From the NCBI GenBank assembly GCA_905480225.1, contig CAJQPO010000012.1:1-33226 (forward strand): a stretch of 33,226 nucleotides of DNA. The letters run 5' to 3'. A program made the translations under genes and the position numbers. Shown here piece by piece: positions 14,532 through 18,710 of this stretch. Source of the stretch: an uncultured Flavobacteriales bacterium. Its GTDB lineage: Bacteria > Bacteroidota > Bacteroidia > Flavobacteriales_D > Parvicellaceae. The notes beneath the pieces were generated by a model. That model made no database searches. It was not told the origin of the DNA and saw nothing but the letters and a program-made list of their open reading frames with translations. Position 1 is the stretch's first letter. Every line of letters begins with the position of its first letter.

Positions 14532-17249
14532 TTAATCAGCCAGATTCGTGGAAAGCCAAGTAGACATGTCTTCTAATTCCAAACCTTTTCGTAATGCAAT
14601 GTCAGCTACTTGATCTTTTTGGATTTTCCCTAATCCAAAATATTTAGCTTCAGGATGTGCAAAATACCATCCACTAACTGATGCTGCTGGATACATAGCT
14701 AATGACTCTGTTAATTTGACACTGGTATGCTTTTCTGCATCCAGCAATTCAAATAGCGTTATTTTCTCTGTATGATCAGGACATGCTGGATAGCCAGGAG
14801 CTGGTCTTATGCCTCGGTAAGCTTCTTTAATTAAATCGGCATTACTCAAAGCTTCATTGCTTCCATATCCCCATATTTCTGTACGTACTTTTTGATGTAA
14901 CCTCTCTGCAAACGCTTCAGCAAAACGATCGGCCAAGGCCTTCAACATGATAGAACTATAATCGTCGTGGTCCGCTTCAAATCGTTTTACGTGTTCCTCA
15001 ATACCACCTCCCGCAGTTACCACAAATCCACCGATGTAATCTTCCAATCCTGAGTCCTTTGGAGCAATGAAATCTGCCAATGATAAATTTGGAATTCCTG
15101 GTGCTTTCTTTAATTGTTGACGCAGATGTTGGGTGTTTGCCAATAATTCTGTTCTGGAATTGTCTGTATAGATTTCAATCTCGTCTGGTCCACATGTATT
15201 GGCTGGCCAAATTCCGATTACAGCATTCGCTGTAATCCAGTTTTCCTTTATAATCAGGTCAAGCATGGCATTCGCATCAGCAAATAGTTTGGTCGCCTCA
15301 ATGCCAACTACGTCATCTTCTAGTATTTTTGGGAATCGTCCATGTAGCTCCCAGGTTTGAAAAAATGGTGTCCAATCAATATAATCGCGCAGCTCAGAAA
15401 GACTATACGATGGCAAGCTGGTTATGCCAGTAGTTAAGGGCGTGAAAAGTTGGTCCTTATTCCAAGAAATTTGTTTTTTATTAGCCACCGCATCCGTATA
15501 GCTTAAATACGATTTTTGATCTTTTTTCTTAGCATAGTTAACACGCACTTTTTCGTACTCATTATGCAGATTTTCTATATACGATTCTTTATTAGATCCA
15601 AGCAAATTTTGGACAACGGTAACTGATCTCGAGGCATCCAAAACATGTACCGTAGAACCGGTATATTTCTCTTCAATCTTAACCGCTGTATGCACTCTGG
15701 AAGTCGTTGCTCCGCCAATGAGTAAAGGGATTTTGAAATTGGACCGCTCCATTTCTTTTGCCACATGAACCATTTCATCCAAGGACGGTGTTATTAATCC
15801 AGATAATCCAATAGCATCGACTTGTTCTTCTACCGCTTTTTTTAGAATATCATTTGCCGAAACCATCACACCAAGATCAATAATTTCGTAATTATTGCAA
15901 CCCAATACTACACCCACAATGTTTTTACCTATATCGTGTACATCACCTTTTACTGTTGCGAGCAAAATTTTACCAGCAGCAGCAAGTTCTCCCTCTTTTC
16001 CCTCTTCAATGAATGGAAGTAAATAAGCCACTGCTTTTTTCATGACTCTGGCTGACTTAACAACCTGTGGTAAAAACATTTTACCTGCTCCAAATAGATC
16101 ACCCACAATATTCATCCCGTCCATCAATGGACCTTCGATTACTTGAATAGGACGATCAAAAAGATGTCTACATTCTTCTACATCTTCCTCCACATAATCA
16201 GCGATTCCTTTTACAAGCGCATGAGCAAGTCTTTCAGCAACTTCACTTTTTCTCCATTCCAGATTTACTTCTCGCTTTTTACCATCGCCCTTAACCGTCT
16301 CCGCCAATTCGAGTAATCGTTCAGTCGCATCTGGCTTTCTATTTAACAAAACATCTTCAACGTGATCTAGTAAATTTTTCGGAATGTTATCGTAAACTTC
16401 CAGCATTGCCGGATTAACTATTCCCATATCCATGCCTTCTTTAATCGCATGATATAGAAAGGCAGAGTGCATGGCTTCTCTCACTAAATTATTTCCTCTA
16501 AACGAAAATGAAACGTTACTGACTCCGCCACTCACATGAGCGCCTGGTAAATTTTCCCTAATCCACCTTGTTGCCCGAAAGAAATCTAAGGCATTGTTAT
16601 TGTGCTCTTCCATTCCTGTGGCCACGGGAAAAATATTAGGATCAAAAATGATATCTTGGGGAGGAAATCCTACTTTTTCAACTAAAACTTCATACGATCT
16701 TTTGCAAATTTCTATTCTTCTTTCATAATTGTCAGCTTGACCTTTTTCATCAAATGCCATGACAATAGTTGCGGCTCCGAAGGCCTTTATTCTTCGAGCA
16801 TGATTGACAAAAACATCCTCTCCTTCTTTTAATGAAATTGAATTCACTATGCTTTTACCCTGAACACATTTCAATCCTGCTTCAATGATTTCCCACTTCG
16901 ATGAATCAATCATTATTGGAACTCTGGAAATATCGGGCTCTGATGCGATTAGATGAAGAAATTTCGTCATGCTTTGCACGCCGTCGAGTAAGCCCTCATC
17001 CATGTTAATATCTATGACTTGAGCGCCCCCTTCTACTTGGTCCCTCGCAACCGAAAGCGCCTCTTCAAGATGTCCTTCCTTAATTAATCTAAGAAACTTC
17101 CTCGATCCGGTAACATTGGTTCGTTCGCCAACATTAATAAAATTCGATTCTGGTGTAATCACCAATGGTTCTAAACCACTTAGCTTTAGAAAAGGCAAGT
17201 CATGCCACTTGTAGTTATAATCTCCCTCGTAATCTTTGTGTAAACTCAT
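14532..17249 (-). CDS. metH: Cobalamin-dependent methionine synthase, folate/B12/reactivation part
   Basis: 905 aa, equivalent to MetH without its first domain. Order: pterin-binding domain (about 30-290; [33 protein letters not shown]), B12 cap (about 310-400), B12-binding Rossmann domain with the [11 protein letters not shown] motif whose His ligates cobalt (about 435-560; [25 protein letters not shown]), and the SAM-binding reactivation domain (about 600-905; [28 protein letters not shown]). It transfers methyl from methyl-tetrahydrofolate to cobalamin and on to homocysteine held by the separate N-terminal protein. It starts 13 nt after that gene's stop, in a different frame, so the split is real and not a sequencing frameshift at one base. 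Confidence 0.95.
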
Positions 17250-17262
17250 CTAATTACAATTA

Positions 17263-18264
17263 TTAAGCAACTGATCCTACTTTTCTTGGTTTGTATTCTG
17301 TCACTAATCTGGCAATTTCTGTAATGTGTTCTGGTGTAGTTCCACAGCACCCGCCTATTATGTTCAATAAACCTTCATCCAGAAATTCTTTTATTTGATC
17401 TGCCATCATAGATGGGCTTTGATCGTATTCACCCATTTCATTAGGTAAACCTGCATTGGGGTGGGCACTCACATTAAAAGAGGAATTCTTATTGAGAATT
17501 TGAAGATATGGCCTCAATTCCTTGGCTCCCAAAGCACAATTCAAACCAATACTAAGCAATGGCATGTGTTCTAGAGAAATCAAAAATGCTTTTGTCGTTT
17601 GACCACTCAAAGTTCTACCGGATGCGTCTGTAATGGTTCCTGAAACCATGATTGGAACGGTTACTTGCAGTTTCTGAAAAACTTGATCTATAGCAAATAA
17701 AGCAGCTTTAGCATTCAAGGTGTCAAAAACCGTTTCAACTAGCAAACAATCAACACCACCTTTTATTAAAGCGTTCACTTGTTCGCTGTAAGCTTCCACC
17801 AATTCATCAAATGTTATGGCTCGAAATCCGGGGTCATTAACATCAGGCGACAAGGAAGCCGTTCGATTAGTCGGACCGATAGATCCCGCTACAAACCTTG
17901 GTTTTTCTGGCTCCAATTCAGAAAATTCCTGCGCTACTTCTTTGGCTATTTTAGCAGAATAATAATTAATATCATGAACCGCATTTTCCAGATTATAATC
18001 TGCTTGAGCAATCCACGTTCCGGAAAATGTATTGGTTTCAACAATATCCGCACCTGAAGCAAAATATTGCCGATGAATGTCCTTAATAATCTCAGGTCTG
18101 GTTAAAGAAAGTAAATCGTTGTTTCCTTTTAAAGGAGACGAATGATTTTCAAACCATCCTGTTCTAAAATCTTCTTCTTCTAATTTATGGCGCTGAATCA
18201 TCGTTCCCATTGCACCGTCAAGGACCAAAATCCTTTTTTTAATTTCTTCAAGTATTGTACTCAT
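17263..18264 (-). CDS. metH: Homocysteine S-methyltransferase subunit of split methionine synthase
   Basis: 333 aa, corresponding to the first domain of full-length MetH. It binds and activates homocysteine through zinc. The N-terminal [13 protein letters not shown] motif, Cys in [11 protein letters not shown] and the Cys pair in [10 protein letters not shown] provide the three zinc ligands. Together with the 905-aa partner 13 nt downstream it adds up to 1238 aa, close to the usual single-chain MetH. The leader carries a SAM-I riboswitch and terminator (18292-18478), so expression is expected to fall when S-adenosylmethionine is plentiful. Confidence 0.93.
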
Positions 18265-18291: not shown

Positions 18292-18328
18292 GCAAAAAAA
18301 AATCTCATCTATAAGCTAGAAGAGATTT
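18292..18328 (-). terminator. Riboswitch-controlled intrinsic terminator before metH
   Basis: On the minus strand an AAATCTC/GAGATTT 7-bp stem, an A-A mismatch and an inner TCTA/TAGA 4-bp stem close a 5-nt loop, followed by nine T residues (18300 down to 18292 overlapping the stem end). It lies 28 nt before the metH ATG. The 5' arm and loop (18311-18319) can pair instead with the 3' strand of riboswitch helix P1, which makes it a regulated terminator. It would also end transcripts of the cox operon that read through. Confidence 0.85.
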
Positions 18329-18346
18329 GTATTTCGTTATCCATTC

Positions 18347-18478
18347 TAACTCATCTTTATTTGCTCCAAACCAATTGGAACAAAACAGGATTTAGCACCT
18401 TTCTTTTAAATTGATCGTTTAATTGCGGTTGCCAAGGTATTTTCGGGCCTGATCCCTACACCTTTCTTTATAAGTTAA
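18347..18478 (-). promoter_or_regulatory. SAM-I (S-box) riboswitch aptamer upstream of metH
   Basis: The minus-strand RNA carries all the S-box landmarks in order: P1 5' strand UAACUUAU (18477-18470), AAGG U opening P2, the conserved AGGGAUCAGGCCC, P2 closing ACCUU followed by GGCAACC, then GGUGCUAAAUCC, a 7-bp P4 hairpin (GUUCCAA/UUGGAGC), and AGAUGAG ending in P1 3' strand AUGAGUUA (18354-18347). Spacing matches the RF00162 family. SAM binding would stabilise P1, freeing the terminator and switching metH off. Without SAM, AUGAGUUAG pairs over 9 bp with CUAGCUUAU (18319-18311) to form an antiterminator. Confidence 0.93.
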
Positions 18479-18491
18479 TTGCAAAGAACGC

Positions 18492-18710
18492 TTAATGTAT
18501 TCGCTTAAATTCTCGGAAAAACGCAAATATTTTCTTCCGGAAAAGAATAAAGAGCAACACATAAGGTACAATGATTAAAAAGATAATTCCTGAGTTGATA
18601 TCCATTCCTGAACCTTTCGCATTTTCTTTGCACATAGCACACTGCGATTGAGATTCAACCGTTATAAAAACTAAAATCAACAATGAAATGAAATACCTCA
18701 ACTTAATCAC
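18492..18710 (-). CDS. Small CxxC membrane protein of the cytochrome oxidase cluster
   Basis: 72 aa with a GTG start. A signal-like hydrophobic segment (about 5-22) is followed at once by QSQCAMCKEN (Cys24, Cys27), a short linker, and a transmembrane helix (about 41-58) with a basic tail (FRKKIFAFFREFKR). The CxxC pair would sit at the outer face of the inner membrane. I recognise similar small QCAMC proteins next to cytochrome oxidase genes in other Flavobacteriia, but know of no assigned function; a role in copper handling or thiol redox for oxidase assembly is inference from position. It begins 50 nt after the DUF420 stop and ends 13 nt before the SAM riboswitch. Confidence 0.75.
   Translation of the reverse strand: MIKLRYFISLLILVFITVESQSQCAMCKENAKGSGMDINSGIIFLIIVPYVLLFILFRKKIFAFFREFKRIH

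Follow-up and report, generated by a model that had tools for sequence, protein, structure and literature searches.

A predicted SAM-I riboswitch whose P2 kink-turn carries neither sheared G·A pair, upstream of a split metH in an uncultured Flavobacteriales bacterium

Introduction

SAM-I (S-box) riboswitches have already been reported in Bacteroidetes, and outside the Firmicutes translation attenuation was described as the commonest mode of control (Barrick and Breaker 2007, PMC2258182). In the SAM-I riboswitch of T. tengcongensis, the P2 kink-turn substitutions A1nC and A1nU abolish SAM binding and G2nA is harmless (Schroeder, Daldrop and Lilley 2011, PMC3651934). Tertiary contacts hold the bend in the double mutant G2nU+G3nU, whose kink-turn alone does not fold, and thereby preserve SAM binding at about 4-fold lower affinity; we found no G1bA in the main text of that report. 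Natural SAM-I kink-turns have A·G at 3b·3n in 60% of cases and C-G or G-C in 0.1% (PMC4382518), and an A·U pair at 2b·2n occurs naturally in the ribosomal Kt-23 of T. thermophilus (PMC4316175). The turn of the SAM-IV riboswitch has four nucleotides, against six in the SAM-I kink-turn (PMC6890682). Our literature search returned no paper on SAM riboswitches with methionine or methionine synthase in flavobacteria or Bacteroidota. Here, we describe a SAM-I locus in a 33,226-nucleotide stretch of DNA from an uncultured Flavobacteriales bacterium (hereafter, the window).

Results

A SAM-I aptamer precedes a split metH

The first-pass annotation of the window had proposed a complete SAM-I riboswitch in front of a split metH and had asked for a covariance-model search of the minus strand. 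The search (cmscan) returned a full-length match to RF00162 over the gathering cut-off of 44.4 bits. The features of the aptamer and its surroundings, all on the minus strand, are as follows.

18348 to 18476, minus strand: SAM-I aptamer (RF00162; cmscan 60.8 bits, E 6.5e-12, model positions 1-108)
18470 to 18477, minus strand: P1 5′ strand, UAACUUAU, partner of 18354-18347
18347 to 18354, minus strand: P1 3′ strand, AUGAGUUA, common to P1 and the antiterminator
17263 to 18264, minus strand: metH part 1, homocysteine S-methyltransferase domain, 333 aa (PF02574, E 6e-100; TIGR02082 positions 2-320)
14532 to 17249, minus strand: metH part 2, pterin-binding, B12-binding and activation domains, 905 aa (PF00809, PF02607, PF02310, PF02965; TIGR02082 positions 327-1181)
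18492 to 18710, minus strand: small upstream ORF, 72 aa with a GTG start, which stops 15 nt short of the aptamer

No other Rfam hit in the window reached the gathering score; RF00162 ranked first within its clan in cmscan, and the 2.76-Mb assembly yielded no second SAM-I. All four helices, P1 to P4, were covered by the model alignment, with non-standard pairs mostly in upper P3; folded freely, the aptamer formed P1, P2 and P4, and P3 in part. P1 consists of eight standard pairs, one of them U·G, just as the first-pass annotation had drawn it. The core blocks AGAA, GCAACC and AGGTGC were invariant in an alignment of 29 sequences including that of the window. Among 56 distinct aptamers, 9 of 22 pairs changed on both sides, a count reached by none of 500 shuffles, the alignment having been fitted to the same structure. 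The aptamers of the two congeneric species, L030 and L031, scored 68.4 and 61.7 bits, respectively. The window RNA is thus best read as a SAM-I riboswitch, which by analogy with the known class would bind SAM. Ligand-switched variants of SAM-I do exist (PMC10853860), but the spermidine variants differ from SAM-I in J1/2 and in the internal loop of P3, blocks that in the window keep the sequence of SAM-I relatives, and the gene downstream encodes methionine synthase; a spermidine-type variant was rejected on the former ground, and sensing of any ligand other than SAM is highly improbable.

The aptamer ends 84 nt before the start codon of metH part 1, and a gap of 13 nt separates the two parts, which jointly cover positions 2-1181 of the 1182 in TIGR02082. 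The split itself was borne out: a separate first part, defined as a first domain that stops within 420 codons, was also found in 54 of 80 named relatives and is therefore not a frameshift of one genome. In the other 26, the first domain runs on or has no stop in the locus. The closest named record was 'Crocinitomicaceae bacterium isolate SI075_bin79' (protein identity 96%), followed by records of which many are labelled Flavobacteriales; the window was placed there accordingly, its genus being Crocinitomicaceae-like. Three metagenome bins labelled Chryseobacterium gleum or Chitinophaga pinensis (L034, L039, L048), labels that may be wrong, carry metH part-1 homologues with 75-80% identity to that of the window. 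No match to PF01717 (MetE-type) was found in the 96%-complete assembly, and its only cobalamin riboswitch lies on another contig (G000:C16:11976-12168, L145).

RF00162 hits occurred in 31 of the 39 family genomes and, with those 39 included, in 217 of 299 genomes sampled across the order. Twenty-nine of the 31 family aptamers sit before a metH part-1 homologue, and an aptamer lies upstream on the same strand in 51 of the 80 named metH loci. As SAM-I had been reported in Bacteroidetes before (PMC2258182) and is usual in the order, its presence alone is no surprise, and novelty of SAM-I in Bacteroidota per se was rejected; a SAM-I riboswitch before metH is ordinary for this lineage. Helix P4 is apparently absent from six SAM-I riboswitches (L013, L015 and L018 of family genus g9, and L076, L272 and L278), which have only a few nucleotides between J3/4 and the P1 3′ strand; the three g9 loci still stand before metH and have a terminator.

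The predicted antiterminator shares the 3′ strand of P1

Downstream of the aptamer, the following elements were identified.

18344 to 18354, minus strand: antiterminator 5′ strand, AUGAGUUAGAA, 11 bp with 18321-18311
18311 to 18321, minus strand: antiterminator 3′ strand, UUCUAGCUUAU, within the 5′ arm and loop of the terminator
18300 to 18328, minus strand: terminator hairpin (-10.4 kcal/mol, z -3.9)
18294 to 18302, minus strand: nine-U run of the terminator, overlapping the foot of the stem

The terminator pairs 18328-18322 with 18306-18300 (7 bp) and, beyond a U·U mismatch, 18320-18317 with 18311-18308 (4 bp), and none of 200 shuffled sequences gave a hairpin as stable. The generic terminator scan, which wants three G-C pairs per stem, did not list this hairpin, whose unbroken stem has two. 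The antiterminator adds four inner pairs to its 11 bp and reaches -13.4 kcal/mol (z -4.1; 0 of 200 shuffles as stable); the duplex by itself has -10.2 kcal/mol, equalled by 0.8% of 500 shuffled arms. The antiterminator of the first-pass annotation is therefore predicted as drawn, with a length of 11 bp instead of the 9 bp given there, and folding and shuffle comparison likewise upheld the terminator and its exclusive alternative.

In partition function calculations for ligand-free RNA ending at 18309, antiterminator pairs had probabilities of 0.76-1.0 and P1 had 0; in the full leader, P1 rose to 0.72-0.90 and the terminator to 0.72-0.92, and the antiterminator fell to 0.06-0.08. As the nascent RNA favors the antiterminator and the full leader favors P1 with the terminator, an OFF switch acting by transcription termination is the best reading. 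The two states of the leader differ by 1.1 kcal/mol, a gap that, together with the order of the states, suits a switch tipped by SAM holding P1 closed, the SAM step being taken from the known class. In these folding models, a mutually exclusive terminator and antiterminator that share the P1 3′ strand are present in the window. The switch logic proposed in the first-pass annotation is hence supported by covariance model, folding and comparison alike.

The platform compared across the family and order

Platforms were compared in 28 of the 29 family loci before metH, L024 being left out for its N's. In all 28, the P1 3′ region pairs into the 5′ arm of the terminator when the 3′ arm is omitted. 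When the aptamer was left out and the 3′ arm kept in, the antiterminator was the best fold in L001, L030 and L010 only (3 of 28), so that elsewhere it must act in nascent RNA. The antiterminator duplex beat shuffled arms, that is, 7% or fewer of the shuffles were as good, in 19 of the 28 platforms including that of the window; the exceptions were L031 (45%), three g4, three g7 and two g9 loci. In a swap test, the window strand paired with its own arm at -10.2 and with six foreign arms at -2.7 to -5.2, and genus g2, which has a different matching strand pair, gave -10.1 with its own arm against -3.2 to -7.9 with foreign ones. For the strands of g3, g5 and g7, every arm offered a near-equal match at its foot (-7.4 to -8.6), and the test is therefore informative only for g1 and g2. 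The strand pairs of the window genus and g2 are distinct and lie in the upper half of the terminator. By these folding comparisons, support for the antiterminator is good in the window and uneven across the family.

A terminator, scored as a hairpin of -7 kcal/mol or lower with a U-run after the aptamer, was found at 28 of 31 family loci, at 1 of 29 loci in the order outside the family and at 9 of 48 named loci; L150 had none. Shuffled sequence gave 1/31, 0/29 and 2/48, respectively, and 0/1 for L150. The 29 order loci, all with a metH homologue within the locus, represent the best-scoring aptamers and not a random sample; the 48 named loci, of whatever family, are what is left of 51 once three duplicates of family genomes are removed. 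A transcriptional platform thus looks like a trait special to the family. The contrast suggests that the same aptamer and target gene were kept while riboswitch output came to differ between families. Within the window genus, L030 has conserved antiterminator arms and no U-run after the hairpin, and L031 has a weak terminator hairpin (-6.9).

Both sheared G·A pairs of the P2 kink-turn are replaced

The first-pass annotation had called the riboswitch complete and had overlooked the kink-turn: the standard P2 kink-turn, with G·A then A·G after a 3-nt bulge, is absent from the window aptamer. The two strands, read from the alignments, are as follows.

18457 to 18459, minus strand: non-bulged strand of the P2 kink-turn, 3n=G, 2n=U, 1n=A (GGA in most relatives)
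18439 to 18444, minus strand: bulged strand of the P2 kink-turn, L1-L3 GAA, 1b=A, 2b=A, 3b=U (NNN-GA-N in most relatives)

Where relatives have G·A at 1b·1n and A·G at 2b·2n, the window has A·A (18441 and 18457) and A-U (18440 and 18458), respectively. The next pair, 3b·3n, is U·G in the window (18439 and 18459) and in L031, and C-G in L030. Both sheared pairs are replaced in all three species of the window genus and in none of the 235 other parsed aptamers. The 238 aptamers parsed comprised 30 from the family (without L024), 29 from the order, 48 named and 131 from family f14, the last being made up of 30, 100 and L150, with the lowest-scoring f14 hits excluded; kink-turn and pseudoknot counts were read from model alignments. 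Within groups, the 238 reduce to 167 distinct combinations of P2 and pseudoknot, 154 standard and 13 not, and the 10 non-standard combinations from outside the window genus replace only one of the two pairs. A pattern requiring 1b=A and a GGG/CCC upper stem hit 3 of 299 order genomes, all of the window genus, and a stricter kink-turn pattern hit only the window's genome among 395 of the phylum. The pattern with non-G at 1b hit 21 of the 395 (23 loci), two of the loci being SAM-I by model R1. A·A at 1b·1n was seen repeatedly (L077, L101, L150, L217, L247, L258, L292, L295 and L298), in loci labelled Cytophagales or Microscillaceae or belonging to family f14; L150 has no metH homologue within its locus.

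A sequencing error was rejected as the source of the change, since three separate genomes share it. Nor is the change recent, as it is kept between the window and L030, whose four-fold sites agree at only 29 of 108 positions; their leaders agree at 137 of 202 aligned bases and their aptamers at 93 of 122, with 45 agreeing among the first 50 aptamer bases, which hold the kink-turn. As the standard kink-turn is a hallmark and not a definition of SAM-I, the window RNA was classed as a variant. A literature search by titles and abstract openings, which is no proof of absence, found no report of a natural SAM-I with both G·A pairs replaced.

How the altered element would bend can be approached from published mutants and from folding. 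The double mutant together with Kt-23 implies that 2n=U alone is tolerable, and the loss of binding in A1nC and A1nU implies that a weakened 1b·1n pair could be harmful; judged by these mutants, SAM binding by the window aptamer would be doubtful unless tertiary contacts rescue it. The chance that the geometry of the kink-turn is unchanged, with A·A at 1b·1n and A·U at 2b·2n making a non-standard k-turn, appears evenly poised. Kt-23 has the latter pair (PMC4316175), the G2nU+G3nU riboswitch tolerates the loss of two guanines at the cost in affinity given above (PMC3651934), and A·A at 1b·1n recurs in family f14, L077 and L101; on the other hand, no example with both changes was seen among the 238 parsed aptamers beyond the window genus itself or in the literature search, and the C-G of L030 at 3b·3n belongs to the class, with G-C, of 0.1% of SAM-I kink-turns (PMC4382518). 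In the minimum-energy fold of the window aptamer, an extended lower helix with a 1 x 4 internal loop takes the place of the kink-turn.

A full pseudoknot accompanies non-standard kink-turns

The P2 loop and J3/4 of the window can form a pseudoknot of 4 bp (CAGG:CCUG), a length found in all three species of the genus.

18448 to 18451, minus strand: P2 loop, CAGG, pseudoknot strand, 4 bp with 18389-18386
18386 to 18389, minus strand: J3/4, CCUG, pairing with the P2 loop

The full 4 bp were found in 13 of 13 non-standard combinations versus 80 of 154 standard ones (Fisher p 6e-4, ignoring relatedness). Within family f1, the counts were 3/3 versus 4/15 (p 0.04), and within f14, where 4-bp pseudoknots are usual, 7/7 versus 57/82, which was not significant (p 0.18). 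The non-standard variants stem from few lineages, and the comparison of aligned sequences suggests a weak link between the non-standard kink-turn and the 4-bp pseudoknot. Tentatively, and at slightly less than even odds, the aptamer of the genus may work without sheared G·A pairs, its lower P2 prolonged by A-U and U·G or C-G, with a SAM-IV-like turn of four nucleotides and a bend held by the 4-bp pseudoknot. If so, evolution would have done what the mutants suggested, a tertiary contact replacing the kink-turn's own stability, and the 4-bp pseudoknot would have been a precondition for the loss of the kink-turn.

Signs of decay and the source of the transcript

The riboswitch of the genus might instead be decaying and no longer regulate, given that both G·A pairs are lost, that L030 has no U-run and that L031 has a weaker antiterminator. 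Moreover, TAnnTTTG, which we take to be the Bacteroidota -7 motif, was present in the 45 nt upstream of P1 at 25 of the 28 other family loci and in none of the three species of the genus, where the upstream stop is 14-15 nt away, compared with 40-70 nt in the other 28. Such decay is improbable, however. Aptamers of the window and L030 are far better conserved than four-fold sites (93/122 against 29/108), the exchange of U·G for C-G at 3b·3n retains a pair, the 4-bp pseudoknot is present in all three species, and both the antiterminator and the terminator of the window are stable. Of the two bodies of evidence, aptamer conservation appears the stronger and would outweigh the signs against a working switch in the genus.

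With an ORF ending 14-15 nt before P1 and the motif gone, metH may be read from upstream genes, and a functional switch could then act mainly on a transcript from upstream, as an internal attenuator before metH and not as a leader with its own promoter. The same-strand ORF ending 15 nt before P1 in the window and the absence of the promoter-like motif of its relatives fit such an arrangement, but a degenerate promoter inside that ORF is possible and the promoter scan covered the sigma-70 type only; on balance, we regard this arrangement as unlikely.

Discussion

We put the probability at roughly 0.85 that the window carries a SAM-I OFF switch acting by termination before metH, with a P2 bend that forms without sheared G·A pairs. 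When SAM is scarce, the P1 3′ strand would be captured by the 5′ arm of the terminator as soon as that arm is transcribed, forming the 11-bp antiterminator, and polymerase would continue into metH. SAM bound in the four-way junction would keep P1 closed, so that the terminator forms and transcription ends near 18294. In the window genus, the P2 bend would be made without either sheared G·A pair, most likely held by the CAGG:CCUG pseudoknot. Our computations show the aptamer itself, both of the exclusive structures, the substitutions in the kink-turn with their conservation, and the pairing of the pseudoknot. That SAM binds, that termination depends on it and that the pseudoknot rescues the bend we infer; by analogy with the class, metH transcription in this organism is probably stopped when SAM is plentiful. 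A conserved natural aptamer without both G·A pairs offers a test of whether tertiary contacts replace the kink-turn in evolution, and of which bend results.

Compared with known systems, the locus is closest to the SAM-I (S-box, RF00162) OFF switch, with which it has in common the four-helix junction, the core sequence, the pseudoknot between the P2 loop and J3/4, a P1 3′ strand shared with the antiterminator, and a target in methionine synthesis. It differs from standard SAM-I in replacing both G·A pairs of the P2 kink-turn, and its antiterminator reaches into the upper half of the terminator and its loop, whereas those of g3, g5 and g7 (15 of 28 family loci) pair with the foot. With the engineered G2nU,G3nU riboswitch of T. 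tengcongensis (PMC3651934), it shares 2n=U and a third pair other than A·G; unlike that mutant, the window RNA also has 1b=A and keeps 3n=G. With SAM-IV, it shares the ligand core, and the four-nucleotide turn of SAM-IV resembles the predicted 1 x 4 loop at the level of secondary structure only. SAM-IV has no P4 and a second pseudoknot, whereas the window RNA keeps P4 and is called SAM-I by Rfam.
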